This document shows, piece after piece, positions 868 to 23,834 of a stretch of 64,000 bases of DNA (the first letter of the stretch is position 1; every line of letters starts with the position of its first letter). The notes under the pieces are model-generated. The model was not told where the DNA came from, made no database searches, and worked only from the letters and a program-made list of their open reading frames with translations. The DNA is from Hysterium pulicare CBS 123377 (taxonomy: Eukaryota > Ascomycota > Dothideomycetes > Hysteriales > Hysteriaceae). A program made the translations under genes and the position numbers. Location of the stretch: assembly GCA_000467715.1 (NCBI GenBank), contig AJFK01000453.1, positions 1-64,000 on the forward strand, read 5' to 3'.

Positions 868-2388
868 TTAGACATTTGGACCAAATAGGCTCCGCAGATG
901 AGCAGGTGGAGATCCTGCTGGAGTGTCTGATGGATTGGTGGTTTGAGTGATCTTGTTAGTAGGAGTCTGCGGCGTGGTGGAGAAAGGAGGCGCGAGAGGT
1001 TTAGATCCAAAGGAAGTTGGCCGAGTGTTGCCTTTGACTGGAGTTAATGGCTCACGGAAGCCCCCGAAGCCTGAGCCAAAGACCCCCTTAGTGGCGTTGG
1101 TAGTTGATGTTGGCTTGGATGAGAAGGGATTGGTGGCATCATGAGCATTACTGTTGCCAATTCCGGAAGAGAGACCGCTAGCAACTCCAAATGCAGGCAG
1201 CCGACCAGTATTTCCCCCGAATCCAGAAGATGTAGGAGCATTTGATATGCCGGATGTGAGTGATGGGTTTAACTTGGGCTCGTTTCCATGGGCACCAAAT
1301 CTAGCGAAGCCAGAAGGTGCTCCAAATGCTCCTAATGTGTTCGCAGGTACACCAGATGTGAGTCCAGTTGGCCTTGGAGCTCCTGGACTAGCATCAGTTG
1401 AAGGTTTAGTACCCGAGCCCAGACGACCGAAGTTGAAAGATGGCTCAAATCGATCTTTGATGTCTACGGTTTTACTTTGAGTAGCTGACACCGGGCCTGA
1501 AGGTGGGCTTCCCAAACCAAACGAAGTTTTGATACCAGTCGCGTGCGCTGCAAATGGCTTGGAGAATGTTGGTAATTTCGAGTCTGGTTTCGTCCCCCCA
1601 GAATTTGAGTTAGATTGGGATGACTGTTTGCAACTGGCCAACATCTTTTCAACATTTATGTTGGGACTGCGAGGGCATTCAGCTCCACGGTCAAATGTAT
1701 TCGGATCGTGAACTTGGGGCTCAGGCGGATCCGTAGGATTGACGTCTTCAACATGCCAAAATCGAACCAGATCAGCTAACTCCTGCTCGGATGTAACGTA
1801 ATCCTCGACTCCTGGACTTAAGGTACCCTGGCTTCTCATATTCCCGATATGCTGAGCCATTAATTCAACATAGATCGACTCGGCTTCACAAGTCTCCCAA
1901 ATCTCCTGAATGTGTTCAAGTGAAAGAGAGCTTAGAAGCATAGACTCAAGACGGTTTTCAAGAAGTTTGACTTCATCCATATCGAAGAGGTCCAGAACAA
2001 GATGGGTGTTGATGACCTCCATGACATCTTCTTCGCGAAATAGGTCGGGAACATCGCTAGCTGCGTCGATGGAAGTGATGAAGCCAACGACTCTCTTCAT
2101 TGCCTCGGAACTAATGTTTGTTCCAGCAGGGAATGCGATGACATCTTCTCGAAGGTACTGGCGCGCATGTGGAGCTCGCTTAAATAGTTTTGTAGTTGGT
2201 ACATCCCTGACGAGGAGAGTATCGTCAGGTTCCAGCACAATATCAACTTTAGCTGGAGGATCACTTTGGGACCTCGGTTTGGAGACGAAGGCTTGGTTAC
2301 CCCATTGGCCTCCGGGAGCATATTTCGAGGTAGCCAACCCACCACCGTGCATCTTGATTTGAGCTGCGTTCTTGAACTTTTGTGTCAT
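868..2388 (-). CDS. BTB-like family protein with FG-rich tail
   Basis: A single open exon of 506 codons begins at an ATG at 2388. Residues about 45-240 have the layout of the minus-strand family that fills the next 22 kb: a strand 'VDIVLEPDD', a hydrophobic core, 'FPAG', a helix ending 'VVGFITSI', then 'VLDLFDMDEVKLLENRLE'. The last ~250 residues are low-complexity Ser/Gly/Pro/Asn with many spaced FG pairs ('GAFGAPSGF', 'GVFGSGFGGF', 'SLFGPNV' at the end), as in nucleoporins. The BTB-like fold is inferred from layout, not proven. The FG tail suggests contact with nuclear pores or a phase-separating role, which is speculation. Nothing in the sequence shows a membrane segment or a catalytic site. 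Confidence 0.75.
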   Translation of the reverse strand: MTQKFKNAAQIKMHGGGLATSKYAPGGQWGNQAFVSKPRSQSDPPAKVDIVLEPDDTLLVRDVPTTKLFKRAPHARQYLREDVIAFPAGTNISSEAMKRVVGFITSIDAASDVPDLFREEDVMEVINTHLVLDLFDMDEVKLLENRLESMLLSSLSLEHIQEIWETCEAESIYVELMAQHIGNMRSQGTLSPGVEDYVTSEQELADLVRFWHVEDVNPTDPPEPQVHDPNTFDRGAECPRSPNINVEKMLASCKQSSQSNSNSGGTKPDSKLPTFSKPFAAHATGIKTSFGLGSPPSGPVSATQSKTVDIKDRFEPSFNFGRLGSGTKPSTDASPGAPRPTGLTSGVPANTLGAFGAPSGFARFGAHGNEPKLNPSLTSGISNAPTSSGFGGNTGRLPAFGVASGLSSGIGNSNAHDATNPFSSKPTSTTNATKGVFGSGFGGFREPLTPVKGNTRPTSFGSKPLAPPFSTTPQTPTNKITQTTNPSDTPAGSPPAHLRSLFGPNV

Positions 2389-3004
2389 GCTGCGAGAGGT
2401 TGGCTAGTGATAGCATCCAAAGGAATTCTTGTGAGTTGATCAAGTTGAGTAAATTGAAGCGCAGGATGGTATTTGTATAGATTCGAGAGAACAAAAGATT
2501 CGAATACTCACCGCTACAGGAAGAGCGCCTGACTGTGACGGTGCTTTGAAGTGAATTTAGTCGATGATTGGAGAATAAATCACGTGACCCTTACCTTCGG
2601 AGAAGGCCCAGGAAGCAGCACTGCATTGGCAATCATCACTGTGTAGGCACATTGACAGGGTCATAAACATTAAGACAGCATCGTTTCCTATTGGTGCCTA
2701 TTAATCGATCCGTCGCAAGGCATATAAAGAGGGACTGGGTAGTCTAGCTATATGTTGGAAATCTTGACAGTATACAGCTGAAGCTACCATATAGTACAAA
2801 TGAGCATCGTTGAGCTAAGTCGTCGATGCCATGAAAACGAGAAACATGAAACCGCAAACGCCTTCCCTATATTCTGAACGAAAGATTTGAATTTTACTGG
2901 AAGTTTCTGCAAGAGGATCGGAGGTTGGAAAAGCCCGTAGGTATGTAGCTTCAATAAGAATATGGTATAAACATAACCAATAGTGTCTATTCGAAGCAGG
3001 TTAT
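2389..3004. other. intergenic, no gene recognised
   Basis: This holds the promoter of the FG-tailed gene at its low end and the 3' flank of the ZIP transporter at its high end. No conserved element or gene is evident. Confidence 0.5.
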
Positions 3005-4495
3005 TTAAGCGAAGGCCCCGACAATTGACATACCGGCAGCTACAACGTCATTAGTAATGATGGTAATAATAGAGAAGAAACTTGGTACTCACCTCCCATC
3101 AACAAGTAGATGAACGCTTTAGTCTTGTCTTTCGAGGTCATATGCAAGTTTGCCTCTTCGGAAAGGAAGTCTTCAGCTAGCAAATCGACCAGCGCAGCGT
3201 AAAGCAGTAACCCAGATGAACTACCAAATATCAGTATCAAAGTCGCAAGCGGATAGAGTATTGTCCTCACATGGCGTTGAACGCTCCGACCATGATCAAA
3301 CCAAAGGCGCTGTTTGGATCATATGTGGATCTAGTGGCAAGTCCGATAGCCTGTCCGATGGGCGCCGTGGTGCCGAAAGCAGTAACAAGGACCCAAGGTC
3401 GAATGCTCTTCTTTGGGTAAGGGACAGCAGCAATACGAGAGCCAAGACCTAGCCCTTCAAACATCTGATGAAAGACGATGGCGGTAAGGAGGATGATGAA
3501 TCCCTCTGCCGTGATGGAAACAGTCATGCCGACGAAAACAGAGTGGAAGAGAATACCTCCCTCAATGAGAGTGATCTGCAATGACATCTTCCTCAAGACC
3601 AAGGGGTCAACGGCTTGTTGTTCGCTATCATCCTCAAAGAAAGATTTCTGGTTCGGGTCCGCAACTTCTTTCTGAGGAGCATATCCGGGAAGAGCTGGTA
3701 GGTTGCGATTGATGATAGCTATCATCTCATCTCTTTGGCGGACGTATTGCTCGTAGAATACGATGAACCATGGAGGCATCTCTGACTTTGCTTCTAGATC
3801 GTCTTCGAGATCTACTGGATACCTATGATACTGATTAACGTATGTTTGGATGTCCCGCGGAGAATTCGTACTCTTTGACCCGCACGTTCTTATCGTCTCG
3901 CATTGTGAGATCAGAGTCATAGCTGTTTCGACGTCCCATAGGATGACTGATAGCTTGGCTAATCCCTGGTGGGCCTGCATTGGGCACGAGGCCTTCGCCG
4001 GTTGCACCGCCATGGGTGTGACCGCCAGTCTTTGCGTTCAGCCACATTTCAACCACGAACAAGATAAAGAGAGATCCCATCATAATGACGCCTGGCATAG
4101 CAGTATATTTTTTGGTCAGGAGATCCGGAAGACATGGGTTTCCTAGTGACTGAAATGCCGTTGGAAGCAGCTGATCAAAATTAGCAGAGTGTTAGGGAAT
4201 GGACGGTTTATTCCTACATGTACGAATGCAGTTGCTATGAGAACTCCAGTGCCGAAGTGTTTGCAAAAGAAGAAAATCTTTGGAGGGATGTTCATCCACT
4301 TGACCTTTTTGGCAAGGACTGGGAAGCCGCATCCCCCAATACTAGCAGCGAAAACAATGACTGTTCCTTTTAGTACATTAATGAAGATGGAATGAGGATG
4401 GACCACCTACAAACAGCGGCGACATGAAGTGGAAAATCATAGTCGGAAGTATCAGCACCACTTCCACACTGGGGCTTTGCTGGTGCGTCCGCCAT
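3005..4495 (-). CDS. ZIP-family zinc/iron transporter
   Basis: The spliced protein starts MADAPAKPQCGSG at 4495 and ends SIVGAFA at 3005. About five short exons are inferred, with introns near 4411-4368, 4195-4150, 3875-3823, 3290-3265 and 3090-3040. Membrane segments include 'VIVFAASIGGCGFPVLA', 'FFFCKHFGTGVLIATAFVH', 'MPGVIMMGSLFILFVVEMW', 'ILFHSVFVGMTVSITAEGF' and 'SSSGLLLYAALVDLLAEDF'. The loop between segments 3 and 4 has the expected histidines ('GGHTHGG'). The metal-site helix reads 'LIEGGILFHSVFVG', and the next helix 'FHQMFEGLGLGSRI' carries the HQxxEG motif of ZIP proteins. This is a Zrt1/Zrt2-like plasma-membrane importer of Zn2+ or Fe2+. It is divergent from the CDF exporter at 5722. 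Confidence 0.92.
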
Positions 4496-5721
4496 TGTGA
4501 ATTGGATTGAGAGAATGTATCAGAACTTCAGTCGTCCTTGGCTTGAAACTGAGAGTTTAGTCCCTCGGGCCTGCCAACAGATCAAAAGAATGAAGTTCGT
4601 CGCCAGCGACGAAAAGACAGAAAGGACAGAAGAAACGAAAACAGCTTCTCTTCCAGAGAGTAATGAAGAGAATGAGAATTGAAGACCAAGATCTGATATC
4701 GCTTCTTGGCCGGCCTATGCATCTTTAAGGCTTCACGGCAGAAGACCGCTAGTACTTCAAAACTGATCTACATGTCTACCAAGAGTTGTACCAAGACTCT
4801 AAGTTCCTACAAAGTGGAGAAAATCTCCATACTCTTGAGTCCAGAGTGGTGGTGAAAGTGTCGAAGAAAGGCTCTGCCTCGTCTTGGTCATCTTGGCCAT
4901 CTTGGCAAATAGTGTGTGATACACTCGATGGAGACAGAAATGTTTTCAGGCGGCTCTGAGTAGCAACTCATCCAGCATGCCCTGAGTTGAACGTGTTGCA
5001 GTCGAGGCTATAGGGAAGGCCAAGAGTTGGAAATAATGTTTGCATGATTGGATAAACTGTCAGCCTTCCGATTCGGTACGTACCGACATGCATGGAAGGC
5101 TTGGCCATTCTGAAGTAATTCTCCGGAGCAGTGGCGTCTCCAATGAGGTGTGGCACGGCACTAGTCTCCTGTCTGGACTTCGTGGGGAGGGAGCTGATGC
5201 CAAGCATTACACTGACGCGGTTTCTGAATTTGCAATAGCTCTCTGGCAGTTTCGGTGACAGAGGAAAGAACACAAATGCCAATAAAACAATGCGACTCCG
5301 CCTGAAGATCATGACTCCAGGCCAAGGCGGCATCGACGGCTCCGAACAGCGATGCATTTCAACCGGAGGCTTGGCGGGGCCAATACGGAACATTTTCTGA
5401 GGTGTGATTGGAAGACTAGCGATGCGAAGGCTATATTTGCTGGCATAAACATCCACGTTGCAGATCCAAGGCGCATAAGGCTTGGCGGGCATGATGATGG
5501 TGAGGATATAGGCGAGTTCGCTACAGGGTTGAAACGTCGCCAAGAAGTTTCGAATGCGTGATGGGCAGCTAGACTCTTCAAGATCTTCCAATTGATTTCT
5601 AGGTACATCGTTAGTATCTCTTGGTACACCGGGGTCGCTCGAGCTTAATAGTATCTCATTCCTATACAGACCTTCCTTTTCCCTCCAAACCATCATCAAC
5701 CCCGTAAACTTGTCGGAAATC
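4496..5721. other. divergent intergenic region between ZIP and CDF genes
   Basis: These 1.2 kb separate the start of the minus-strand ZIP importer from the start of the plus-strand CDF exporter, so any shared metal-responsive control would lie here. I could not recognise a binding site. One uncertain reading frame on the minus strand is listed separately. Confidence 0.5.
4968..5505 (-). CDS. uncertain open reading frame, no family recognised
   Basis: A minus-strand frame stays open across about 540 bases. A plausible ATG (MPAKPYAPWICNVDVY) lies near 5505, and a hydrophobic stretch 'MIFRRSRIVLLAFVFF' follows. A good-looking donor (GTACGT) follows 'AKPSMHVG' near 5085, so the true protein, if any, may splice out rather than read to 4968. 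I found no recognisable domain. It could equally be a chance frame in the ZIP-CDF promoter region or an old gene fragment. Confidence 0.2.
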
Positions 5722-7370
5722 ATGTCTTCCGGACCACAATGTGAGCCTCAAGTTTACGTAGAACTCTTCGAAATATCACATCCCATCTCACAATATTCTA
5801 GCCCCATCCCGAACAACCGGACAGTCACCCAATCCAATTGCACCAGGAACTGCCATCGCGTCGCAGAATTCAGGCTCGAAAGAAGCTATACAACAACGAG
5901 ATGATAGCATCAACCCTCACGGCGGGGTGACCCATGTGTCTACCGGTGACACGACCGCGACCCAAGTGGAGGGTCACACTGATCCCCTCGATCTTGGGAA
6001 GCACCGTCGAGAGAATGTAACACAGAAGCAGATGAAAGCAGATTACCCAGCTGCCAAACCCCGACGAATGAAGAGCTTCTATACGAGGCAGAACGAACTC
6101 ATTGACCAATTTCTCCAAAGTGGAGATGAGGAAAGATTAGCTGCCTTGGACGACATTGAGAATGGACCTAAGGTCAAGTTTGCTGTGAATGCTTCCTTCA
6201 CGGTCAACTTCTGCTTGTTTGTCATCCAGATGTATGCAGCTGTCTCCACAGGGTCTTTGTCACTCTTTGCGACCGCTGCAGATGCCTTTATGGATTTGGT
6301 ATCCTCCGTCGTGATGCTCATAACCTCTCGTATGGCCACCAGACCCAGCGTGTACAAGTATCCCGTTGGCCGCACTCGTATTGAAACGGTCGGTATCATC
6401 ATGTTCTGTTGTCTGATGACAACAGTAGCTGTTCAGCTGATCGTGCGTTCCCATCATCTTGACTTCCGGGAAACGTGCACCGTACTGACAAATGCTAGGT
6501 CGAGTCTGGCAGGACCCTGGGTGGTGGCAAAAAAGCAGTCCAGCCTCTACAAATTCTCCCCTTGACCTTCGTTGGTGTGGCCAGTAAGTAGTCTCCGCAC
6601 ACCCCAGCCGCAAAGCATTCTAACATGTCCCAGTCTTCTGCAAGAGCAGCCTGTGCATCTACTGCTTCATCTTCAGGCGCTACCCAGCAGTGCATGTGTT
6701 CTTCCTGGATCACCGTAACGATATCGTCGTGAATGTCTTCGGTCTTGTCATGTCGATTGTCGGGGATCGATTCGTCTGGTATCTGGACCCATTGGGAGCC
6801 ATTCTCATCGGTCTTTTGATCCTTTGCTCTTGGGCGGCCAACGCGTTCGAAAACGTGTGGTTGCTGGTTGGAAAATCGGCGCCCAGAGAGTTCATCTCCA
6901 AGCTGATCTATCTCGTGGTTACGCATGATAGCCAGATTAAGAAGGTTGATACAGTAAGTGTTTCGTCGCCAGTTTGAGGTTTGCCCTGCCGGCTGTGGCT
7001 GCCGCTGATCTGCAACAAGTGCCGAGCTTATCACGCGGGGCAAAAGTACTACGTCGAGGTCGACATCGTCATGGACCAAGACTTACCTCTCAAAGTCACC
7101 CACGATGTCAGCCAAACTCTGCAAAGGAAGCTTGAAGGTGGGTTCATCTATATCTAATACTCCGCTTGGGATGATGCTAATGCAAAGCCACTGGAAGGCC
7201 TTGCCGATGTAGAGCGAGCTTATGTTCACGTCGACTACGAAGACATCCACGACATTAATGAGGAACACAAGCCAGTATACGATATCACAAGGAGGAAGCG
7301 CAGGTCCATGGCCGAGTACCTCAAGGACAAGAATCCTTTCTCGAAGAATAGCGAAGCCAGCCCTACTTGA
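5722..7370 (+). CDS. cation diffusion facilitator, manganese type
   Basis: The gene starts MSSGPQ at 5722, with an intron at 5741-5801. Further introns lie near 6441-6498, 6580-6632, 6954-7020 and 7140-7198, and it ends at 7370. Segments include 'FTVNFCLFVIQMYAAVS', 'SLFATAADAFMDLVSSVVML', 'TVGIIMFCCLMTTVAVQL', 'DIVVNVFGLVMSIVG' and 'LGAILIGLLILCSWA'. Helix 2 carries D-A-F-M-D, the DxxxD pattern of Mn-type CDFs rather than the HxxxD of zinc carriers. Helix 5 carries N-D-I-V-V-N. A cytoplasmic domain 'YHAGQKYYVEVDIVM' follows, and an 'ERAYVHVDYEDIH' stretch closes it. The likely role is proton-coupled export of Mn2+ or a related divalent metal from the cytosol to a vacuole or Golgi compartment. 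It is convergent with the minus-strand gene at 7565. Confidence 0.92.
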
Positions 7371-7564
7371 CAGGAATGAGCCATAATAAGTTTGTAGATC
7401 TGTACTATACCTTGCGACATTTTTTTTATACATGTAGCTTGATTTGTGTTCTTTAGAAAAGTTATCCAGTCTTTGCTTCATCGAGCACTATCTCTCAAGA
7501 AGATCAGCCGCATGCCGGTGTTTCATTTGTCACCCCGCTTGATTCCTACCCACTCCTCACTTGC

Positions 7565-8845
7565 TCAATCTGATTCAAAACGTTCCATAGGTTCCCTCAG
7601 AACATTTCCAGAGACCTTAGTCGAGCCTATCGGGACATGAATCACCGTTTCCGTAGAATTTACGCTTCCAACGGACTTTTGGCTCTGGTGACGGCGAAAG
7701 CGATCCGTCGCTACTGAAACTGTCCCGGAGTTTGAACGATTCCTCATTTTTGGATTCTCTGTCGGTCGACTGTTTCCGCTTTCAGGAGCCTTGGTGATAG
7801 CTCTGTCCATAGAGGCAGCGCCGCCAATTGAAGCGTGACGACTATGCCGACGACGCTGCGCCGAACCATCGCTCAGGCTTTCTGAAGCCATCTTACCAGA
7901 CCGTGACTTAGGAAGATTAGTAAGGGAATCAGTAACGTTTCGCAATGTCAGCGCCCTCGTTCTCCGAGATATGCGATCCAGGGCACTTGAGGCTGCTTCC
8001 TCCTTCTGATCCGCTTCCTCTTTCTTCTGAAACTGGTCGGTGAACTTAGAAAGTTTCATTGCAAGCCAGTCATTTTTCTCCAAGAACTTCCCAATCTCCG
8101 ACTTGTCCTCATCATTCAGCTCAGAATCGATATACGCCTTGGCGATATTTTGAACCATGGCATCGATGATCCTGTCGTCCCTGTTGTCCTCATCAAATGC
8201 ATCGCAAATGTGTCGGACATCATTCCTAAAGGTGAGATTAGCATGAACTTCGAAAAGGGGTTTTAGTACTGCCGGAATCCCCTTAATACTTTTGCTTATA
8301 GTGTTCGGATTTTCAGATACCACTTGAGTAGGTAGCGAACACGTAAGGGAAAAGTAAAAAGACTGGAAGGCTTTGTACCCGGAACTTACGTACCAATGGA
8401 TGCGTTCGAACCATAGTCGCGTCACCATGTGTAAGCGCAGCGACTCGGCTCCTCGTGAATCAAGCCCGAAGGTCTTCCAAGTCTTCAGGATCTTGGCACA
8501 GTGTTCCAATTTCTTAGGAGTGGCATTGAATTCGGCATTCGGCAGACCCGCAACCTGCATCATTCGATTGATGATGATTTGCAATCCGGTCCCGCTCGTG
8601 TCTGCAGGAAAGACCATGGAGCAATACGTGGGCGTGTCTTTACTGAAATTCGAAGTGTTAGGTACGATGTACTGACTCAGCTTCGGCGCGAAGTGCAGGA
8701 TCGTGTTGACCGGAACTCGTGATGGTAGAAAGGGGGTCATGTCGTGTTCGGGCGTCGTAGCGAGCTTGATGCGGACATAAGGGGCTGTTTTGCAGTCTTC
8801 GGGGACTGGAAGACTGGAGGGTGAGAATTGGAGTGTGTATGACAT
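7565..8845 (-). CDS. BTB-like family protein, Ser/Arg-rich tail
   Basis: The protein starts MSYTLQFSPSSLPVPED at 8845. The frame can be read through, but a GTAAGT donor after 'RIHWY' and an AAG acceptor before 'GIPAVLKPLF' mark a probable 108-base in-frame intron (about 8389-8282). The first half follows the family layout: a strand 'YVRIKLATTPE', a short core 'TILHFAPKL', then 'MVFPADTSGTGLQIIIN' in place of the FPAG/LPxxS strand. A charged helix 'DQFQKKEEADQKEEAASS' follows, and a basic Ser/Arg-rich tail ('RRRHSRHAS') suggests phosphorylation. It is among the most diverged members, and assignment rests on layout and on lying within the same-strand array. Confidence 0.7.
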   Translation of the reverse strand: MSYTLQFSPSSLPVPEDCKTAPYVRIKLATTPEHDMTPFLPSRVPVNTILHFAPKLSQYIVPNTSNFSKDTPTYCSMVFPADTSGTGLQIIINRMMQVAGLPNAEFNATPKKLEHCAKILKTWKTFGLDSRGAESLRLHMVTRLWFERIHWYVSSGYKAFQSFYFSLTCSLPTQVVSENPNTISKSIKGIPAVLKPLFEVHANLTFRNDVRHICDAFDEDNRDDRIIDAMVQNIAKAYIDSELNDEDKSEIGKFLEKNDWLAMKLSKFTDQFQKKEEADQKEEAASSALDRISRRTRALTLRNVTDSLTNLPKSRSGKMASESLSDGSAQRRRHSRHASIGGAASMDRAITKAPESGNSRPTENPKMRNRSNSGTVSVATDRFRRHQSQKSVGSVNSTETVIHVPIGSTKVSGNVLREPMERFESD

Positions 8846-8986
8846 GGTGGTCTAGGTTGCGGTGGTAGGTCTACAGGCACAAGAAAACAAGATGGAGCAT
8901 CAATTTTCATTCGGAATATGTACCTGAGCTAATACATTGGTGGTGATTCGAAGATCCGCCTCTGTTCATGCACAACTCTTCAACAT

Positions 8987-9037
8987 TCAATCCCGTCACT
9001 CAGTCAATCCCGTCACTCAGTCAATCCCGTCACTCAG
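8987..9037. repeat. three perfect 17-bp tandem repeats
   Basis: The unit TCAATCCCGTCACTCAG occurs three times without a mismatch. It lies upstream of the minus-strand gene starting at 8845 and just beyond the stop of the one ending at 9100. It is either a minisatellite or a cluster of regulator-binding sites. Confidence 0.9.
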
Positions 9038-9099
9038 TTACAATTTTCACTTTGTGAATTTCCATCCCTTCAATCAAGCTTCTAATATACGTGTGTCAT

Positions 9100-9807
9100 C
9101 TAACCCGCATGGCGAGCAGCAAAAGCTAACCGGCAACGGGAATGTGGACAATCACCCATCATCTCTGCAAATTTCTTTGACCGCGGGTCTTCACCGATTT
9201 CGAGCGTCATCACTTCATCGCCCCTGTGTAGTATGTATTTGTCCTTCTCTTCGATATTATTTTGTGGGTCAATGTAAGGTTTGTATGCCATACGCCCATC
9301 TATCCAGTGTTGGAACAAATGTAACCGGAGTTTATTGTCGATCGGTAGATCCATGACATCCGTGGAGTCGGAGGGTAGGAATTCATTCGCCGATATTGCG
9401 CGATGGAGAGACGGCAACATCGGCACTAGTATTTCCTCGACCTGCAGAATTATCGCGTTTTCGTACATGGACAGGTTATTCATGAATATGTTCCCCGTTT
9501 CTAGCGGACGGACTACATCAGCGCTGCAACTCTCTATCATCCATTTTCCGAGCTCCTCAAGAGCTGTCAAATTGTAGCCTGTTTGCTGCATGTAATACTG
9601 ATCCTCGTGGCGTCCTTCTTGTTCATCAGAAAGAACCTTGTCTCGAACCCTACCAGAGAATTGAAGCCAAAGCTTCCTGGGTAGAGCAATGTCATCTGCG
9701 CGCCCGTATAGATCGTGGAAATGGATGTTTAAAACAGGGCCATTCAACAGCTCTCTTCGTTCATTCTTAGAGAGTTTGAAGATTGATCGGTGGGTTTTGG
9801 AAGCCAT
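9100..9807 (-). CDS. BTB-like family protein, short form
   Basis: One exon of 235 codons begins at ATG 9807. The N-terminal family block reads 'KLSKNERRELLNGPVLNIHF', nearly matching 'ELSKEERRALLEGPKVRIVF' of the next gene upstream (10547-11230). The pair also share 'ALEELGKWMIESC' / 'ALKEITEWMEDIC' and 'NLSMYENAIILQVEEILV' / 'DLEMYRVGLALKAYDIIL', so they are clear paralogues. The C-terminal 80 residues are charged and end in a small Cys/His cluster ('DCPHSRCRLAFAARHAG'). There is no signal peptide or membrane segment. The function is unknown. Confidence 0.78.
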   Translation of the reverse strand: MASKTHRSIFKLSKNERRELLNGPVLNIHFHDLYGRADDIALPRKLWLQFSGRVRDKVLSDEQEGRHEDQYYMQQTGYNLTALEELGKWMIESCSADVVRPLETGNIFMNNLSMYENAIILQVEEILVPMLPSLHRAISANEFLPSDSTDVMDLPIDNKLRLHLFQHWIDGRMAYKPYIDPQNNIEEKDKYILHRGDEVMTLEIGEDPRSKKFAEMMGDCPHSRCRLAFAARHAG

Positions 9808-9887
9808 GTTGATAGGTAGATAGCAAGAATTTCAGAATAAGGAAAGTGCTGAGCCAAGAGAATGTATGTGATGAAGTTTGAGGAGTC

Positions 9888-10546: not shown

Positions 10547-11230
10547 CTACTTCGAAACTTCCGCGGAAGACTCCTCCGCCTGGTTTTCCTCTCGGCATTC
10601 ACAATGACTATCCGTTTCACATTCCCCGTAATCCTCCTCGTAATTCTCGAGTGCTTTCTGAAACCTCGGGCCCAGCTTCTCCTTATAGCGGCTCTCGAAA
10701 GCACCGGGGTGGGTTCGGCGGTAGTAGAACAGATTCGACACAGCTAAGTCAAAGATGAGATCCTCTTCGGGTAACTTCTCGATGATGGCGAGTTGCGCAA
10801 GACTCAGTCTGTCGAACTGTAGCTGAGAGGTAATAACCGCATGTGCCTGCAAAATGATGTCATAAGCCTTCAAAGCAAGACCGACACGATACATCTCTAG
10901 ATCTCTGATGAGGTTGGTAGCGATGCCAATATGGAGCCAGTAGGCATGCCGAGTCGTGCAGATATCCTCCATCCACTCAGTAATCTCCTTGAGAGCCTCG
11001 AAGGTGCAGGAGTCTTCAGGAAGGAAAAGGGTTTCGCCCTTGTCGGACTTTGTGATGTCCGTCTCCGCAACATCGGAAAATTGAAGTAGTAAAGCTTTAG
11101 AGAGCATCACTTCATGGTTGACGACGATGCCATCGGCATTTTTGAAGACGATACGGACTTTGGGACCTTCAAGAAGCGCCCTGCGCTCCTCTTTTGAAAG
11201 CTCGGTGATCGTCCTCTTTTGATCGGGCAT
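10547..11230 (-). CDS. BTB-like family protein, acidic tail
   Basis: One exon of 227 codons begins at ATG 11230. The family block 'ELSKEERRALLEGPKVRIVF' is followed by a BTB-like order: a strand pair, 'KALLLQFSDV', 'TLFLPEDSCTFEALKEITEW', then helices. The tail is acidic with a small cysteine cluster ('CETDSHCECREENQAEES'). The nearest relative in the window is the neighbour at 9100-9807, which indicates a local tandem duplication. The function is unknown. By analogy with BTB domains it may mediate protein-protein contact. Confidence 0.8.
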   Translation of the reverse strand: MPDQKRTITELSKEERRALLEGPKVRIVFKNADGIVVNHEVMLSKALLLQFSDVAETDITKSDKGETLFLPEDSCTFEALKEITEWMEDICTTRHAYWLHIGIATNLIRDLEMYRVGLALKAYDIILQAHAVITSQLQFDRLSLAQLAIIEKLPEEDLIFDLAVSNLFYYRRTHPGAFESRYKEKLGPRFQKALENYEEDYGECETDSHCECREENQAEESSAEVSK

Positions 11231-13096: not shown

Positions 13097-13106
13097 AAAG
13101 ACCCAT

Positions 13107-14039
13107 CTACAGCGTATAAAGTTCAAACTCCGAGCCAAGCCCCAGATTCTCGCACTCCTCTTCCCAAAATTGAGCATTAAATGCTCCAAAGGACAGGACC
13201 CCGTTCTCCGCCACCTCCTCCGCAACCGGCTCCTGCACAGGTTCGGCCCACCACTCCTGAGCCTCCCCACCAGCAAGCTCCTCCACTGGGAGCTGCACTG
13301 CAGGAGGGAGCTGCACCGCAGCCGGAATCTCCGCCCTCGGTGCCACTGTTTCAATGAAGTTAGCCTCGCCCACCAAATTTGATCCATGCTTCATGCTCTG
13401 CAACTCACCTTGGGCTTGACTCCAAAAAGCTCGAGCTGCTTGACCCATGTCCAAGATGAACTGGGTCTCATGATTCCCCCCTAGGACCTCAAAAACATCC
13501 CTATCCAACTTCTCATTTCCCAGCACCACCATGCTGGCAATTTGGGTGGCCAGATGCTGCACGTAGGGATCAGCCTGCCCCAGAATGTTGACGGTGGTCC
13601 CAACGGCCATCTTGACCTGGTCCCAGGCCTGGATGGCGTCGCGGGCGAAATCCCACTCTACCTCCATTGTCAAGGCCGAAAGTAGCAGTTGGGAGACTAC
13701 TTCTATCTGGAACATTCTCGCAGCCATGTACAGCTGGAGCTTGCATGTATGGCCCCCCTGGATGGGAAAAGGAACCATCTGGCCACCCGAGACCCAGTGG
13801 TAGAGCCACTCGAAGACGATCTTTGTCGGGGTCACCAAACCTCGATCGAAGCGGGGGAGGAAGTGCTTCGGGCCCGAGTAACCCGGGCGAATGCTTCTCA
13901 GCTCAGGGGAGAAGTAGCTGGCAAGGGCAATGGGGACGTCTATGATAGAGACGTCACCCCTGTCGGTGCTTGCAACCAGCTCGACATGCGGGCCGTTGAG
14001 GAGGTGGAAGAGAGAGGCGGAGTTGTCGTTAGAAGACAT
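13107..14039 (-). CDS. BTB-like family protein, Pro/Glu/Ala-rich tail
   Basis: One exon of 310 codons begins at ATG 14039. The N-terminal block is shortened to 'LFHLLNGPHVELVAS', then 'VPIALASYFSPEL', 'IVFEWLYHWVSGG' and 'KLQLYMAARMFQIEVVSQLL', matching the positions of 'VNFMIYQAARVLGLNEHI' in the gene at 16910. After about residue 210 the tail is rich in Pro, Glu, Ala and Val with near-repeats ('AVQLPPAVQLPVEEL', 'EPVQEPVAEEVAE'). It ends in an aromatic/acidic patch. The function is unknown. Confidence 0.75.
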   Translation of the reverse strand: MSSNDNSASLFHLLNGPHVELVASTDRGDVSIIDVPIALASYFSPELRSIRPGYSGPKHFLPRFDRGLVTPTKIVFEWLYHWVSGGQMVPFPIQGGHTCKLQLYMAARMFQIEVVSQLLLSALTMEVEWDFARDAIQAWDQVKMAVGTTVNILGQADPYVQHLATQIASMVVLGNEKLDRDVFEVLGGNHETQFILDMGQAARAFWSQAQGELQSMKHGSNLVGEANFIETVAPRAEIPAAVQLPPAVQLPVEELAGGEAQEWWAEPVQEPVAEEVAENGVLSFGAFNAQFWEEECENLGLGSEFELYTL

Positions 14040-14171: not shown

Positions 14172-16909
14172 TTAATTTCTTGCGTTACAGCTGGAAGACT
14201 CACAGGAGGGTCTTCCCCTTAGACGTGATCTTGGAAAGGTACCAATAGATCATTTCGACGTTTGTACCAAGTTTTGACGTAGTTCGAACGCCGGAGAGTT
14301 AAAGGGAGGAGTCCTTTTCCTGAGTCACGAATGTGAAATCACTGGAAAGATGGTCCGGATAGACCTGAAAGACTGGAAATACGGCTGCCTGAACCAGTAC
14401 CAGAAGCAGCCAACGACTTGGGGGTATCTATCATCGTGCTCAAGTCCCTTAGTGTCACGGTGCTCAACTGCTCCAAGCTCGTGCTGCTCAGTTAAGCGTA
14501 CACTCTATCTGGAGCTGCAATTTTGCCTGTTCAGAAAAAGAGATAGCATGAAAAGTGAGATACTGAGCTTTCCTCGAAGGAACAACATCTAGAATGCGTG
14601 AGTAGGGAGTTTGCTGTATGTTCCCGTCGATATGAATTTGCAAGTGTTGACCGTGGTTCAATAGTTGATTGGTACATTCGACGACCATTCGTTGGTACAC
14701 TAGCCGGCGGAGTCTGTCATTTGGCTTTACGAAGTTTGGGACATCGGGACAGTGCGTTAGCTCTACAGGGCACAGCTTGGCGTGGGTCCCTGGGAAGCTT
14801 GAGCCGACGACATGATTTAAAACATCGAATTCGAATGATGTCTGTATACTTTTGATGTCCGTCTCAGAGGAGCTCTTAGAAGAATTTTGGCTGTTTCAAA
14901 TGGATATCTATTCTATCAGTATTTCGCCTGTTAAGAAATTGACGAAAAGTGCGGTAGAGACTCAAAGTCAAAAACCGAGAGAAATTTGGTACCTGCATCA
15001 TTCAACCCCCAGTCGAGTCATCAATTCAAACGCCAATCAGGACAAGCTGGCATCACCTGCGCGCAAAGAGTTGGGAACTCTAGCCTTCACTTTCAGTGTC
15101 GACATCCAGTACCGAACAATGGCTGTGCGCGGCATACCTAGGTTTGTTAACTTCTGGGTTCGAAAATTGGAACCGCACGCCTCACCTCCCTCACTGATCA
15201 TATCTAGGCAGCAGTTTGAGCGTGTGTGGTTGGTCAACCAAGTTGCGAAGAGTATATTCTCCCGTACCGATCAAGTCTTTGGATCTGGCTCCACTTCTGA
15301 GTGACTCCTTGCAACTAGCCTGAGCCAAACTATCGGAGGCATGCTGGCAATGATGAGGGAATTGAGCAAGTTAATCTTCACCGACGCTTCGATTGAGTGG
15401 TTGGCAGCAAGACATCGAACATTCTTTTCGAATCTATGATCTAGTTTTGTGGCAAGTGGGTTGGATCAGGATCGTACCGAATATGCTTCAGAGCCGCATC
15501 AAACTTTATCCTTAGCGGCGAGAGCAAAGCCGGAAGGTCGGTGCGTCGTTATTGCCGGTGCTCGGAAGGCGCGATTGAGTCCAGTTTGCATACATTGTGA
15601 ATTCAATTAGTGATATGCTGCACTGAGCACTTGGCGGCTGCATCTCTAGAACACAATCATCTGGGGCATAGTTCTTTACGAGTTACTCTTGCTCCGCGCA
15701 GGAAAAAGTTGCCACCAGATCACGCTAAGAGATGCTGAAGATGTGCCCGGCTTGTCAGTGACATGGGGCAGCGTGATGTGTAGCCAAGAGAGCTTGATGG
15801 TCTTCTCGGAACACAGAACTGATGTCAGTAATGTTAAATTTGGTCAGAGCTGGACGTATTGGATGTTGCGAAGACTTCCGTCATGCTGCGAGTTGTTACT
15901 GTGAGTGAAGTCTTGGCATTCCGCCCCGCCCCGCCCCCGCCGTTCGCTACCCCCTGAATTCTACACTTCTTCAAATACCAGACACGAAAGATACCGGAGG
16001 GTTTTCGTTAGATTCTAATGAGTTTGTCGCAAGCCTCCCGTTTATTCTGCTGTAAAAACTCCAATGCTGTCTTTGTGATTGAAGTGTCAAGAGGCAAGAG
16101 CTGGGCCCTGGCTTCTCTACAGGACCGAAGTGGCCACAGGGAACAACATTCCCAGTGACGCACTCATTAGGAAAATGATACCGCATTCATGATAGAGACC
16201 ACATGTGCGTAGGCGGTCCTGTGAGTAGTGATAATGGCTTACGCAATGAACAATGTACGCTCGACGGCGCTCCTAGCCTTAGAGAAAGTGAGCGGCGCAG
16301 CCTGGCGCGGGCTCTGCTCAGCTGTGGCCGGGGGCACCCACCCTTCAGGCAGTCGCATCGCGCAAAGGCCGTGTGTCACTACAACCCCATGTTCTCACGA
16401 TCACCGCAAACTCTATCCTGTGGCTTCTCTCTAGAAGAAGAGTCCGTCATGTTCTATACCTCTCTCCCGATCATGAAGCCTTCTACCTTCCTCAGCAGAT
16501 GGTGCCCTGCATTTGTCGACCAGCCGGCCGCGATCGAAACCGAGGCGCCAGATGCAGACTCATTTACTTCGGTCACGTACACCTTCACAGCACCATATCT
16601 GAACGATCAACATGGAGTAGCATAGCATGGAATTGCGATTTCGTGAGACAACAAGAAACACATGGGGGCACTTCAACTTTATTCAGGATCATTTGCATTA
16701 TGTTACTTCCAGTGGAAGAACCCAGTTTAAGGATGGAAAGCTAATATCAAACCCGACAGTTAAACTCCGGACTCCAGATTATCGCAGACCCATTCAATCC
16801 ATCCCGTTAAGCAGTTTGGTATGTGGAAGGATTAAGGAGGGGATAAGGTTGTGCACAAAGAAAGCAACACCAACAACGTACAAGGCCGCGGTGGCGCCAT
16901 GGAAACGCC
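14172..16909. other. 2.7-kb gene-poor stretch
   Basis: Short frames occur on both strands (longest 150 codons at 14852-15304 plus) but none shows a recognisable domain or convincing splicing. A CCGCCCCGCCCCCGCCG tract lies near 15930. It may hold decayed sequence. Confidence 0.4.
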
Positions 16910-17797
16910 CTAACGTCCTAGCAGACCTCGAAGCATTTCCGCCGCCTCAGGAGAAGCCGAATTGATCTTGGAATCCTGCATGCCGCGAGGAGGGTTCAGA
17001 ACCTTCTTGACGGCCTCCATCGCCTTCTTCTGCTTCTTGTTCTCGTTCTTGCAGTGGACCTTCCATGCCTCGTTCTCGGCATCTTCGATAGCCTTGCGCT
17101 CGAGGCGACGATCGGTGAACTCCTTGTCTACGGCAGCCATAGCATTTGCCAGATCAAGATGGCTCGCGAGATACAGGCCGAATTCTTCAGGATCCTCGAT
17201 CTCTCGCTTATAGCGAAGCTTAGCGAATCGCTTGGCCACAGTCATGTACACAGTGTCTTCGGTCTTGACATACTTCTCGACATATTCAAGGCCCTTATAC
17301 GACAGGACGGTATTGTTGATCGAGCCGATAAGGTTGCGACGCACAAACTTGATATGCTCGTTGAGGCCAAGCACGCGAGCAGCCTGGTAGATCATGAAGT
17401 TGACTTCGAGATTATCGGTGAACGTGATTGGATAATACTTCTCGGACTTGCAAACTCGGTGCAGCCAAATAATGATGTGCTGCACGCCGGCTGCTTCCAC
17501 AGAGCCTGCTGGAAGCCGGATCTGGAGTGATTGAGGGTACAAGGCGAAGTATCCGTTGGCCTTGGAAGAGATTGCTGTGAAAGCTTCTTTTGGCACACCG
17601 TTGATGACTTGCTCAGCCGGGCCCTCGATCACGATCTGAACTTTGGGATTACCGCTTAGTTGCTTGCGCTCGTCCTGTGACAGCTCAGCGAAATTCCTGA
17701 TCTGCTGCTTGGCGGCGACCGGTTTTGGAGATGGAGTCGCCATCGCAGGAGGCGGTTGGTTGATTTTAGCTGAAGAAGTAGCTTTAATCGTGTGCAT
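16910..17797 (-). CDS. BTB-like family protein, charged tail
   Basis: The first ATG is at 17797 (MHTIKATSS); the open frame extends a little further upstream without an ATG. A Pro/Ala-rich leader precedes the family block 'ELSQDERKQLSGNPKVQIVI'. The BTB-like part includes 'LQIRLPAGSVEAAGVQHIII' and 'VNFMIYQAARVLGLNEHIKF'. The helical part contains 'VEKYVKTEDTVYMTVAKRFA', closely paralleled by 'VDRLVKIEDPVYVAIARKFA' in the gene at 18744. A Lys/Glu coiled tail ends in 'MQDSKINSASPEAAEMLRGL'. That C-terminal motif recurs in the two genes upstream of it (18744-20896 and 22419-23834). There are no catalytic or membrane features. Confidence 0.82.
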   Translation of the reverse strand: MHTIKATSSAKINQPPPAMATPSPKPVAAKQQIRNFAELSQDERKQLSGNPKVQIVIEGPAEQVINGVPKEAFTAISSKANGYFALYPQSLQIRLPAGSVEAAGVQHIIIWLHRVCKSEKYYPITFTDNLEVNFMIYQAARVLGLNEHIKFVRRNLIGSINNTVLSYKGLEYVEKYVKTEDTVYMTVAKRFAKLRYKREIEDPEEFGLYLASHLDLANAMAAVDKEFTDRRLERKAIEDAENEAWKVHCKNENKKQKKAMEAVKKVLNPPRGMQDSKINSASPEAAEMLRGLLGR

Positions 17798-18743
17798 GTT
17801 GAACGACTGATCGAACAACCTTAAGTCGAGGGAAAATTGCGTAGTTGTGGGTTACGGTTGGTATGAGGTTGTAGAGAGAAGTCAGAGAAGTGGTATAGGG
17901 CTTTGGAAGAGGGTGTTGGAGGGCTTTTTGTGCGATTCCAAAGGTCTGAATTGGAGGACTTCATTGTGAAGAGAATCTCTGTGAATTGCGGACTTGTGAA
18001 TGCACGAAGTTGGCTTGATATAAAAATCACAGCCCTCCCGTATATTAGGGGCGTGAATCTAGCCCTTCGTGCATCGTAGCTCTTCAATGATATGAGACAC
18101 GCTGTGAAAGAACGAGAAAGGCCATCTTAACGTGTAAGCGTAGAATATATACAACACGTATATCTGTCAACTGTCATGAAAAATTATACGGCGGTATCTG
18201 ATAATGACAAAGTACAAATGTCAAATTTAATAAGATAATGGTGACAACACGGCCACTTTGTATTTTACCAGTGACATGTCCTGCAAACGCTCCGTAGCGT
18301 CTAGCATTAGGAACAATGAATTTGCGTCTCAAAGGCCATAGATAACAAACAGCTGGCAAGCAAAGGCAAGCGCAGATCGGGCATCGTGAACAAAGGCCTG
18401 TTTTGCCTGGCGTAAATCAAATTGGCGAGTTGTTTCTGCGCTAAAGACAGATCGTAAAAGGCCGAAAGTTAAGATTAGGAGACAAAAGCCTTTTAGGAAG
18501 AGAACGGAAGGGTATTATTGCATATTTTCGCTTGTGTTATGTGCACATTTGTACTATGTCAAGTATAATAAAATGGGATTTGAGTAGTATGTGGCCAGCA
18601 AGAGACAGCAATCAACAATTCTGAACCACTTATCAACAATCTGTGTCCTAAAGCGCCTGAATACTATCCAGTGACCACTTGCTCGAGTAAATGAAAGAAA
18701 ACAACGTGAAAACCCCCGCTAAGAACTATTTTCCAGCACTGTT
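17798..18743. other. intergenic, no gene recognised
   Basis: This spans the promoter of the 16910-17797 gene and the 3' flank of the next. It is mildly AT-rich with no repeat or gene identified. Confidence 0.4.
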
Positions 18744-20896
18744 CTACAACCTAGCCGCTTCCTCCGCCGACATCGTAACAATCTTAGTGTCCTTAGCGCC
18801 GAGAACCGGGTTGTCAGTAGTCTTCTTGATTTCATCTACCAGCTTCTTACTGTGTTGGATCTCGAATTTTCGTTGCTCGTTCCCATTGGCGTGATAGATC
18901 TGCCATTCTTCTTCGCCTTCGGCTTGGAAGGTTGGGTGGGGAGCGGAAAATTCCACATCAGCCTGCTTCATAGCCTCCGTTAGCTTTGGATGGCAAGCCA
19001 AGAATTTGAAGAATGATTGGATGTTCTGGATCTCATTCTTGCGGCGGCGATATGCGAATTTACGGGCGATAGCGACGTAGACCGGATCCTCGATTTTGAC
19101 GAGGCGATCAACGAGCTCAAAATCCTCTTTAGCAATGTTCTGAAGGTTCCATGATGTTTTCCATGAAGCGAGGAAGTGCTGAACATAGGTGTCCATGCCG
19201 AGATAACGGGCGGCCAGGTAGACCTTAAGATCGATCTTAAAGTCGTCGCGCTTTGAGATGGCGAAATATTTGGACTTGGTGACCTGCATGAGCCACTTTG
19301 CAATATAATGAACTGCCTGTCCGTCTACGCCGCCCTTGGGAATGCGAAGTTCCGTGGCGCTTGGGTTTCCAGCAAACAGCTTCTGCGCTGTCTCAGATGC
19401 AGCCATCAACGCGGCCTTTGGAACATAGACGCGTATGCCAGGCTCGCCATCGAAGTTGATGGTGACTTCGGGACCTTTGGCTAAGGCCTGACGCTGTGTT
19501 GCGGGAAGGCCACGAAGATCTTGAATATTCTGCTTGACGACTCACTTATCCATCTTCTGCTTCGAGTTTGGTTTGGCAGTGATGTCTAGAGTGTCTAGCG
19601 GTTGAGGTGCTGAGCCAAAGCGATCAGTTGGCTTGAGAACGGGAGACGAACCCGGCGAAAGTGTTGTTGGTGTAGAGGTCGAAGAATTACCGGGAGACGA
19701 CCAGACCGATGTAGGCGGAGTTGATTCCCGAGAGGAGATGGACTCAGAAGGTCGACCATAGCTGATAAACTTGAATATGACATCATTTTCACCCGAGGCG
19801 GGTTTAGGAGAAGCTTTTGATGCCTTTTTGGCCCACGGTCCCGAAAGGGTAGTAGGCGCTTTTATGGCTGTTGGCATCTTGACGGTAGCTGCTGAAGTTT
19901 CTGATTTCCCTGGCTTAGGCAGCACTTCAGCGGGTGGTACCCTAGAAGCCTTAGAAGCCTTGGAAATGGCATTCTCGGGTTTGCTCTCGTGAGATGATGG
20001 AGCGGTGATTGTGGAAGGCGCCAACTGGGCTACCTGGCTCCATGAAGAGTTGTATTTGGCTTGCGAAACCAAGCTCACTGCCGCTTCAGCTGATTGCATA
20101 GCTTGAGCTTGCCGCCTATGGGCATTCCGGGAAAGCTTCTGAACTCGAAGTTGCGGACTAAGAACGTTAGCAATAGGGAACAAATGGCAGATATGACTCG
20201 ATAATGATACGTACTTGGCGAGCTCATCCATAGCAGCTTGTTTGGTAGGATAATGGGTGTCGATACGAGTAGTGGCAGTGATCTCGGAAGCATTTAAGGA
20301 GCTAATCGAAGTTTGATCATCTCCGAATGACACAATATCAAGCGCAGTCTTCTCGGTAACCTTCGTATCCTGGGCACCAATTGAGCCCTCGGCATTGCTA
20401 AAAGTAGCAGTTCTACTCTCTTCGGATAAAGAACTCTGCACAGTGGTATCTGCATGCTGGCAAGCTTCTTTATCATGCGGATTTAGGTTAGCGAGACGAG
20501 AAGCATTTGCCCTACCCTTACGCTTCTGCCGCTTCCGAGCAGACTTCGACAATTGGCTTCCAGTGGTACTATTTGAATTGGGTTTGGAAGATTCTCCTAT
20601 AGCCACCGTAGACTGAGGATTCATCGAAACATAGATGGAACCGACAGCCGCAATGGTAGTGGCAGCGACAGGGGGAACAGCAGTTGTAGCAACCGCACCC
20701 TTGTACAAGGCTTTAGCCTTCTTGTTCTGACGCTTCAAAGCAGATTTGGAAAGCTTGTCGGTAATGGTAGGCCTAGGGGAGTTAGTTTGTTGGGGTGTGG
20801 GCAGTCAGGGGTCAGGAGGGTGCCATACTGTACCATCTTCGAAACATTTCCTTTAGGCACAACAGTGACCCAAACGGATGTAGTAGCCTTAGACAT
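18744..20896 (-). pseudogene. BTB-like family protein, long form, with in-frame TGA
   Basis: Exon 1 (20896-20829) starts MSKATTSVW. Introns lie at 20828-20773 and 20214-20158. The first part encodes a Ser/Thr/Lys-rich region with three copies of a basic motif ('KLSKSALKRQNKKAKA', 'QLSKSARKRQKRKGRA', 'KLSRNAHRRQAQAMQ'). A TGA at 19542-19544 then interrupts the frame. The same frame continues without any shift into the family block 'LPATQRQALAKGPEVTINFD', the BTB-like domain and the C-terminal 'AKDTKIVTMSAEEAARL'. The paralogue at 22419 is continuous across this point. The gene may be freshly disrupted, expressed as two products (the second from ATG 19409), read through, or carry a sequence error. 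Confidence 0.7.
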
Positions 20897-22418
20897 TATC
20901 GAAGGAAGTGAAGAGACGGATATGAGAGATCCGAACGAAATGGTGAATCAGAAATTGAAAACGCTGAAGCTAATGCTTGGAATGTAGAGCAGGAGACTGG
21001 AAGTGGAGTTAGTCAAGTTGACAGAATGATTTTTAGGATCCGGCTAGGGCGATAGAACTTCGCCAATATTGACAGTAGGTAACCTATGCCGGCGACTGCC
21101 GCTGACGAGACTACAATGTGACGTGGACCGCCAAGCCTTCGTAGTAGTGGCTGCACAATGAAGAACGAAAGTAGGAAAAACTTACTGATTGAGACGTCTA
21201 GTGGTGAGCTCGAATGGTGTGGTGCAAGTGGTGGTGCTTCCGGTGGTCTTGGGAAGTACCTGACAGGAAGGTGCTGGTCTCCGGTGGGTCAAGCCAAGTG
21301 AATCACCCGAATTGGTGAATTGCCAAGGAAAGTCCGACCAAGAAGCGAAGAGTGTTCAGGTGCAAGAGGAAGGATAGTAGTTGAGTTACTAAATGCCAAA
21401 GCAAATGGTGCTCTCCTCAGAACCATTGGTCGCTCGTTTATCAATGGCTGAAGAGCGGTATCTGGCTAAGCGTCGTCAGAGAACTCGGGACGTGACAGCT
21501 ACTTTCCACGGTATTCCGCCGCCACGCCTGCACTTTTGTGTCGCTTGCAGGGAGCATAGCAAATTGAGCTCCCTACCCTTTGTTGGTATGTATATTCGAG
21601 TTCGTAATGAAGGTCATCTCTAACAAGTAGTCATTGATATTAATCCAGCACTGGGAGTTGGCGGTACCATTATAAAATCGTTCTGCATAATCATGTCAAA
21701 CTATATGTTGAATCAACTTAAACATGATGTATAAGGCCAATCCCGCTTCTTCTAAATAGTAGAATGTCCTATCGACATCTCCGCAAGTCCCACGCCATCG
21801 AACACCTCAGCCCAAAATAAGTTATATGATACTTCCACGATGGTTCACCGCAAGGAAGAAAAATAGTGCTGTGGATGCATCGTCCGGGTGTTTGCTTATC
21901 ATCATGTGCTATACATAGCAAACAAGTAGTCTTCAGAGAAACCATACTATCATATAGCTAGCAAACGCGTGCTGTCCATTTGATCAATAGATCATAATAC
22001 TTCAAGTTTTCGCTCACAAGCGAAAGATTTTATATAAAGCTGTCTTGGCGAAATGAATTATTGGAACTTAGAAGAACAGACTTTTATACATAGTCGTCGT
22101 TCGGATGCATTCCAGTTCGGAGATCGTATATATTCTCGTAGTCTATCAGTATATCACATCAAACTAGTATCACTTTACGAGCCGGAAACTTTTTGAAGAT
22201 TTCAATTTTCTATGAAAAGCGAAGAACTGTGGGCTATTCTGTGCAGAGGGGTTGGGGAGATCAATCTTGGTGAAGTGGAGAATTGAGCAGCCAATCCAAA
22301 CGCCAAACCTTCAGAGTTAAATCGAGAAACTATGATGTCGACACATCAAGTCGAAACTCCGAACTGTGAGAGAAAAGAGAACATCCATCGCCCCACCATC
22401 GTACTACGCCTTGCTGAC
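20897..22418. other. 1.5-kb intergenic stretch
   Basis: Upstream of the gene starting at 20896 and downstream of the stop at 22419. Short frames only. The part from 21640 to 22200 is AT-rich. Nothing recognisable was seen. Confidence 0.4.
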
Positions 22419-23834
22419 TCACTGCCAGTAGTATTCGTCATCCCAGCTGGCATGACCCTCTCGCTTCAAATCTGCCACCTTTAACAACTTCGCCTCCTCA
22501 ACCGTAAGGACTTCCACCTTACTATCCATCCCCTTTATCTTTCTAGCCTTCAAGAGCTGCTCGCGCGCCTTCCGCTCAGCGTTCTCTGCAGCCCTACGCT
22601 CAGCATTACGGCGCTGACGCTCCGCCTCTTGAACAGCCCACTTCTTCTGCTGCTCCTCGAAAATCTGACGATTACGCTCGTCAATCTGAGCTTTAACTAC
22701 GGCGCGATGATCAGCGCGACGCTGAGCGTACCATGCATCGGATTCGTTCATGAGTTGGGCGAAAATGGGATGCTGGGAGATGAAGTCGAGGAGTGAGGTA
22801 GATGCGGTAGTGTTTTTCGCCTTCTTGTACTTGAAACGAAGTTTCGAGTAGTCGAATGCGAGATCTTCGAACAGTCCATCCCACTCGGAGATGTTGTTGA
22901 GGACCGTCGCGAGTTCGGCGTAGTTGGCCGAATGGTCCTTGAAGTAATCGCGGATCTGATTGTAGATGCCGTGAGTATACGAAGAGGCAATTTCGAGAAC
23001 CTTAGCCGCGTTGTAAACATTAACTTTGTTGTGAATGTTCGTCTGGACGGTGATACGGAAGAGAGCGTAAGTGCCAACCGTCTTGCAGGTGTTGATCATC
23101 CAGTTGATTACTTGTAGTAATTCGTGCTTCTTGACTGAGTCCCGGGGAAGATGGAGCTCAGTCAAGAGGGGTTTGTCAGTGAACTCCTTTTGAGCCAACG
23201 CCGAGACCGCCATGAGCAGGCGCTTGGGTACGTTGAAGACCCAGGCATGACCACCGACATAGATAGTGGCGCGAGGACCAGTAAGAAGATTCAGGCGGTC
23301 AGCCTTGCTCATGTTGAGAAGGTTGTCCACGACTTTCTGTTCTACCGTAAGAATCTCGTTGGTCTTACGAGCGCGAGCTGGACCCTTTGGAGGCGTCGTT
23401 TTGACCAAGGGGGGAGAAGTCTCGGCCCGCTCTGATACACCAGTTACTGAAGTAGGGTTGGTATTCTTGGATTTTTTTGAAGCAGAGCTTGAACCTGTAT
23501 TCTGGGCAGAGAGGGCAGGGGTGGATGTGGAACCCGTGCCAGAAGGAGTCACAGCTTTGTCTTGCTTACGACGATGCGTGACAACAGTGAACCCGCCAGT
23601 GTCTTCGATCGAATTTGACGTCTCGGTCATAGTGGTGAGCATATCAGCTTTTGCTTTCTGATTCGCACGCTTTCGAGCGGACTTTAACATCGTGCCCTTT
23701 GCAGCGGACCTAAGACTGTTAGCATTTTCTGAAAGAAGACAGTAGTCAGGGGTGGGAACGTACTGGGTAACTTGCTTGGGACCGACAGTATTATCGGTGG
23801 TTTTGAGAACCGAGAACATGTTCGAACCAGTCAT
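22419..23834 (-). CDS. BTB-like family protein, long form
   Basis: The protein starts MTGSNMFSVLKTT at 23834. An intron (about 23772-23712; GTACGT, GCTAAC branch, TTAG) removes the segment after 'GPKQVTQ', at the same place as intron 1 of the gene at 20896. A basic motif 'MLKSARKRANQKAKADM', a Ser/Thr-rich linker and the family block 'NMSKADRLNLLTGPRATIYV' follow. The BTB-like part includes 'LTELHLPRDSVKKHELLQVI' and 'NWMINTC'. After the helical region there is a long Arg/Glu/Ala coiled tail ('QEAERQRRNAERRAAENAER') and the shared C-terminal motif 'MDSKVEVLTVEEAKLL'. It is intact. The basic stretches could bind nucleic acid or direct it to the nucleus. Confidence 0.82.
   Translation of the reverse strand: MTGSNMFSVLKTTDNTVGPKQVTQYVPTPDYCLLSENANSLRSAAKGTMLKSARKRANQKAKADMLTTMTETSNSIEDTGGFTVVTHRRKQDKAVTPSGTGSTSTPALSAQNTGSSSASKKSKNTNPTSVTGVSERAETSPPLVKTTPPKGPARARKTNEILTVEQKVVDNLLNMSKADRLNLLTGPRATIYVGGHAWVFNVPKRLLMAVSALAQKEFTDKPLLTELHLPRDSVKKHELLQVINWMINTCKTVGTYALFRITVQTNIHNKVNVYNAAKVLEIASSYTHGIYNQIRDYFKDHSANYAELATVLNNISEWDGLFEDLAFDYSKLRFKYKKAKNTTASTSLLDFISQHPIFAQLMNESDAWYAQRRADHRAVVKAQIDERNRQIFEEQQKKWAVQEAERQRRNAERRAAENAERKAREQLLKARKIKGMDSKVEVLTVEEAKLLKVADLKREGHASWDDEYYWQ

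Follow-up and report, generated by a model that had tools for sequence, protein, structure and literature searches.

Positions 1 to 64,000 of contig C347 of Hysterium pulicare CBS 123377 (C347:1-64000, hereafter the window) carry eight genes, g1 to g8, whose products are predicted to consist of a diverged BTB fold followed by a helical BACK/3-box-like part and a variable tail. A preliminary description of this DNA had placed them on the minus strand, and we confirmed all eight open reading frames there, between 871 and 23834. An N-terminal block resembling LSxxERxxLLxGP is conserved in the family. The genome searched for relatives comprised 37.2 Mb in 596 contigs.

Layout of the locus

The genes and their main features, all on the minus strand, are as follows.

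871..2388, minus: g1, diverged BTB and helical domain at residues ~45-215, then an FG-rich (phenylalanine-glycine) tail of 266 residues at 871-1668
7568..8845, minus: g2, diverged BTB and helical domain with a Ser/Arg-rich tail; 370 residues without the predicted intron
8226..8393, minus: predicted intron of g2, GT...AG, 168 nucleotides, a dispersed introner-like repeat
9103..9807, minus: g3, diverged BTB protein of 235 residues, matching g4
10550..11230, minus: g4, diverged BTB protein of 227 residues with an acidic tail, matching g3 and g8
13110..14039, minus: g5, the most diverged of the eight, with a Pro/Glu-rich tail
16913..17797, minus: g6, diverged BTB, helical region, long charged helix and conserved C-terminal motif; structure modelled
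18747..19541, minus: g7, BTB part, 265 residues, laid out as g6
19542..19544, minus: g7, in-frame TGA between the upstream part and the BTB part
19545..20896, minus: g7, upstream part, a Lys/Ser-rich extension with two KSAxKR motifs resembling that of g8
22422..23834, minus: g8, N-terminal extension, BTB and helical domain, charged helix and conserved C-terminal motif; matches g6 and g7

Intergenic gaps range from ~260 to 5180 bases, taking the ATG at 20896 as the start of g7. The largest, between g1 and g2, contains a ZIP zinc transporter and a cation-efflux gene, so that the array proper is g2 to g8 and g1 an outlier. The eight genes do share one strand, as first described, but the array is interrupted by the two transporter genes.

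Common descent of the eight genes

Pairwise BLASTP links five members (g6-g7, 1e-40; g6-g8, 1e-14; g7-g8, 7e-14; g3-g4, 9e-11; g4-g8, 5e-9; g4-g6, 6e-7), while g1, g2 and g5 gave no significant pairwise match among the eight. These three were compared by hhalign with a profile of 16 family members from which they had been left out. Each was recovered (g1, P 2.4e-9; g2 with its predicted intron removed, P 1.8e-10; g5, P 8e-7), and for each none of 60 residue shuffles equalled the real score. Using hmmsearch over 775 open reading frames, g2 (1.4e-12) and g1 (7.2e-12) were significant and g5 fell short (0.12). In whole-genome searches, a paralogue on another contig (C182:1976-2665) picked up g1 at E 3.4e-4; queries with g1 or g5 returned only the query itself, and unspliced g2 found only g2 and copies of its intron. 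The proposal that the eight form one homologous family is therefore upheld, five by BLASTP and three by a profile built without them, and as judged by these sequence comparisons g1 to g8 evidently descend from a common ancestor.

A diverged BTB fold

The fold was modelled for two members. The g6 model (predicted local distance difference test score, pLDDT, 84.2) matches BTB and BTB-BACK structures, the closest of which include SPOP, KEAP1, KBTBD2 and A55, and a weaker model of g5 (pLDDT 66.6) also has BTB structural matches. Strands at residues 23-28 and 34-40, helices at 41-47 and 49-57, a strand at 63-66 and helices at 73-88, 101-113 and 117-133 give the g6 model the strand-strand-helix-helix-strand-helix-helix-helix topology of the BTB core. 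The helices that follow align with the BTB-BACK regions of SPOP and A55 to model residue ~205, with the 3-box residues lying outside the comparison.

Across 147 columns, the family profile can be aligned with the genome's own canonical BTB genes. The hhalign P value was 3.2e-5 with 12 members, beating all 100 column shuffles, and 3.1e-6 with 16 members, the latter without a shuffle control. Individually, g1, g2 and g5 scored no better against canonical BTBs than shuffles did, so their link to the BTB fold runs through the family profile. Pfam reported no BTB domain at E <= 1 in nine window pieces, spliced g2 or 12 paralogues, returning only scattered sub-threshold names, and none of the genome's 60 matches to the BTB family PF00651 falls on the five contigs that carry the family. 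The sole hit from a sequence search of the PDB with a five-member profile was a ribosomal protein (E 2). The two models and the profile alignment thus bear out the BTB fold that had been guessed from the sequence.

The CUL3-binding motif

KLHL3 uses a phi-x-E motif to bind CUL3, and the E85A substitution there severely disrupts binding (PMC3616122, excerpt). Fungi have three cullin genes besides species-specific duplicates, and Cul3-BTB complexes are listed in S. pombe (PMC2785787, excerpt). By best PDB match this genome encodes Cul1 and Cul3, the Cul3-like gene lying on C534 (best match Cullin-3), with additional cullin matches on C253 and C366.

By a fixed rule, 15 of the 22 canonical BTBs in the genome have phi-x-E at the expected distance; a sixteenth, on C583, has it beyond the distance window, and four of the seven failing the rule lie in the C368 array. 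In the diverged family, 17 of the 18 members tested either lack the motif or have it displaced, four of the 22 known loci falling outside the test. The ends of the helix-to-strand segment were chosen by hand from alignments, and the difference between the two groups (Fisher p 6e-5) is a guide only, as it counts related genes as independent. The sole member passing the rule, g1, is doubtful because its segment is unusually short; in g4, g8 and two C181 genes the pattern occurs at a different spacing. The family is best read as BTBs that would have left CUL3 behind, and an adaptor role in the CUL3 sense appears weakened by the missing motif.

Tails

Six of the 13 tails compared (g6, g7, g8 and three C4 genes) share a C-terminal motif in which D-S/T/F-K-V/I precedes an E/N-E/A-A/V block; it was defined after the tails had been inspected. 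In g6, g7 and g8 it takes the form D-S/T-K-V/I...E-A and comes after a charged helical stretch. All six motif tails lie on one side of a tree split (support 83), alongside one C4 gene that does not have the motif, which argues for descent rather than exchange. A profile of C4 tails alone retrieves the g8 tail (E 1.3e-7) and misses those of g6 and g7, and the mutual alignment of g6 and g7 extends into the C-terminus. The preliminary description had called the tails unrelated and proposed their exchange; the first statement has to be narrowed, given the motif common to g6, g7 and g8, and the second is not supported, this tail tracking the tree. At the N-terminal side, KSAxKR is common to g8 and the upstream part of g7, which has two copies.

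The g1 tail contains 10 FG dipeptides, compared with a mean of 2.4 and a maximum of 9 in 5000 shuffles, and g1 matches no Pfam family whatsoever. To our knowledge, it would be unusual for a BTB domain to carry a tail of nuclear-pore type.

A further motif resembling EVLxVEE occurs in g8 and in C4:34611-35831, just before the BTB block and again at the C-terminus; the g8 copies lie at window positions 23337-23357 and 22494-22514 (minus strand). When the N-terminal side of the C4 gene was compared with the C-terminal side of g8, none of 500 shuffles reached the score, this being one of 25 comparisons. Two self-comparisons gave p 0.001 and 0.0135, and the remaining 22 of 25 gave p >= 0.066.

Family size, tree and distribution

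Whole-genome searches with single members added loci on four contigs, bringing the family to 22 loci on five: eight on C347, four on C4, two on C182, six on C181 and two on C44. This count is a lower bound, as the genome search scores best candidates only; pieces of one broken locus were taken as one, and the dispersed look-alikes of C181:26825-27973 described below lie outside it. Paralogues are ~20-45% identical in matched stretches. In a tree of 20 members, of which four deep nodes have support below 50, g6 pairs with g7 (98) and g3 with g4 (94); the partners of g8, by contrast, are two C4 genes (93) and not its window neighbours. Some of the duplication is therefore local, as envisaged at first and as seen in the pairs g3-g4 and g6-g7, and some predates the separation of the C347 and C4 arrays. 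Terminal branches are between 0.5 and 2.6 substitutions per site long, and none of the members in the tree is a recent copy.

Two profile searches among 5.8 billion proteins, scoring 7045 candidates in the first and, in the second, the 7996 sharing most words, detected nothing related at E 1e-3; candidates are picked by 5-residue words in common, and distant orthologues may escape such a search. As a control, the neighbouring bicarbonate-type transporter (34118-35650) gave 2583 matches in the same database, led by Lojkania enalia (78%), Zopfia rhizophila (77%) and Lindgomyces ingoldianus (80% over 91%). The first and last of these belong to the Pleosporales, and the named transporter matches among those listed are fungi. 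The control confirms that the database includes fungi, although the transporter is far more conserved than the BTB family. The empty searches argue against close orthologues in sequenced Pleosporales, not against distant ones. No title among the literature matches listed, mostly titles and abstract openings, describes this family. To this extent the suggestion of an undescribed family is supported: Pfam does not recognise the BTB part of g1 to g8, and no relative emerged from the protein searches.

Interrupted copies

In g7, the TGA interrupts an otherwise open frame and separates a 420-residue upstream open frame (19545-20804) from the BTB part. An intron that would remove the stop was considered and rejected: GTGAGT begins at 19545, but no frame-preserving AG follows in the next ~140 nucleotides. 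The upstream part has a predicted intron at 20158-20214 (57 nucleotides), and it is only our own reading that translation starts at the ATG at 20896, ahead of a short first intron. Elsewhere, C4:33463-32526 is broken across two frames, C181:35909-35268 has internal stops and C181:34157-33594 is open from mid-domain only. Such broken loci may be pseudogenes, assembly errors, genes with unrecognised introns or recoded genes.

One member, C181:26825-27973, has 12 dispersed partial look-alikes (36-83% identity, eight with stops) on C213, C15, C296, C194, C85, C508 and C309. They may be decayed copies, or a repeat that carries the gene along.

The g2 intron and other features of the window

The predicted intron of g2 has at least 41 genomic matches including itself, the other copies being 70-81% identical. 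Alignment starts at nucleotide 1 in 36 of the 41 and mostly stops at nucleotide 157 of 168; 13 of the 15 copies checked start GTACGTAA, with YAG near the end. Open frames flanking the copies are moderately above background (medians of 67 and 99 versus 45 and 46.5 codons), and the predicted RNA fold of the intron is ordinary (z -0.36). From its sequence, the repeat looks like a family of introner-like elements, which were reported earlier from some Dothideomycetes (PMC4457414, excerpt). It also occurs in two C181 family loci (L044 5598-5427 and 727-553), the second copy being weak, with the expected YAG acceptor position empty. These copies apparently sit at other gene positions, suggesting separate insertions.

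Further along the window lie a HET domain gene (38348-39958, minus), an NPHP3_N gene (50203-51111, plus), a protein kinase gene (53275-54561, plus) and an F-box-like gene (56291-57751, plus).

Discussion

We propose, with somewhat better than even confidence, that g1 to g8 form an ancient array belonging to a diverged Dothideomycete BTB subfamily whose products serve as dimerising scaffolds rather than as CUL3 receptors. The BTB part would homo- or heterodimerise, and the lineage-specific tails would be the working end of the scaffold, namely the long charged helix in g6 to g8 and the FG-rich tail in g1. The absence of phi-x-E from most members makes scaffolds likelier than CUL3 substrate receptors; the step from CUL3 loss to dimerising scaffolds is one that we infer from the predicted fold. 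One observation tempers this proposal: canonical BTBs of the C368 array also go without phi-x-E (4/7). A more elaborate version, in which a lineage-restricted subfamily lost CUL3 binding and heterodimers combine the FG-rich, coiled and acidic tails of neighbours as a combinatorial kit, strikes us as quite unlikely.

Ordinary CUL3 substrate adaptors, in which the BTB and helical parts bind CUL3 and variable tails deliver substrates for ubiquitylation, would account for the resemblance of the model to SPOP, KEAP1, KBTBD2 and A55, some of which we take to be known CUL3 binders. CUL3 appears in the titles of some matched entries, the genome has a Cul3-like gene, and the model has a helical part after the BTB. 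However, phi-x-E is missing or displaced in nearly all members tested, the same motif in which E85A disrupts KLHL3 binding (PMC3616122, excerpt), and none of the known substrate-binding domains is recognised in the tails by Pfam; we regard this explanation as unlikely. The tandem array, high paralogue divergence and broken copies, together with the HET and NPHP3_N-type genes farther along the window, could instead befit a family for recognition or allorecognition, diversified by selection, in which the array would offer varied binding surfaces. Its divergence is old, however, the tree holds no recent copies, and a literature search combining BTB, heterokaryon incompatibility and allorecognition gave 0 matches, which leaves this reading rather improbable. 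Nor do we give much credence to a decaying orphan family in which paralogues of little function are drifting and disappearing. The g7 stop, the frame-split C4 locus, the C181 loci with stops or open from mid-domain, and the look-alikes of one C181 member (8/12 with stops) all resemble decay, but 18 of the 22 loci retain long open frames despite low identity and the fold-defining layout persists, which suggests selection.

Together, these findings indicate that part of a fungal BTB repertoire can escape PF00651. In psychrophilic Dothideomycetes, the list of the top 30 expanded orthogroups includes a BTB one (PMC11412873, excerpt). Being invisible to Pfam and mostly devoid of the CUL3 motif, the array holds somewhat more interest than ordinary BTB arrays do, but BTB gene clusters also occur elsewhere in the same genome. 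A single genome holding both CUL3-motif arrays and diverged arrays mostly without the motif provides a test case for ubiquitin adaptors versus scaffolds.

Among characterised systems, the adaptors SPOP, KEAP1 and KLHL3 have the BTB and BACK-like arrangement predicted here, whereas Pfam finds no MATH or Kelch domain in the eight genes and, in contrast to the plant BTB-BACK-ankyrin protein NPR1, no ankyrin repeats in any of them. Canonical fungal BTB/POZ genes of the same genome (the C343, C344, C368, C107 and C204 arrays) differ in that PF00651 detects them and misses the diverged family, which has its own N-terminal block and usually a shorter helix-to-strand segment (median 20 versus 23 residues, hand-cut). 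The two groups are nonetheless alike in fold, in the order of strands and helices, in the helical part after the BTB and in their arrangement as tandem arrays.
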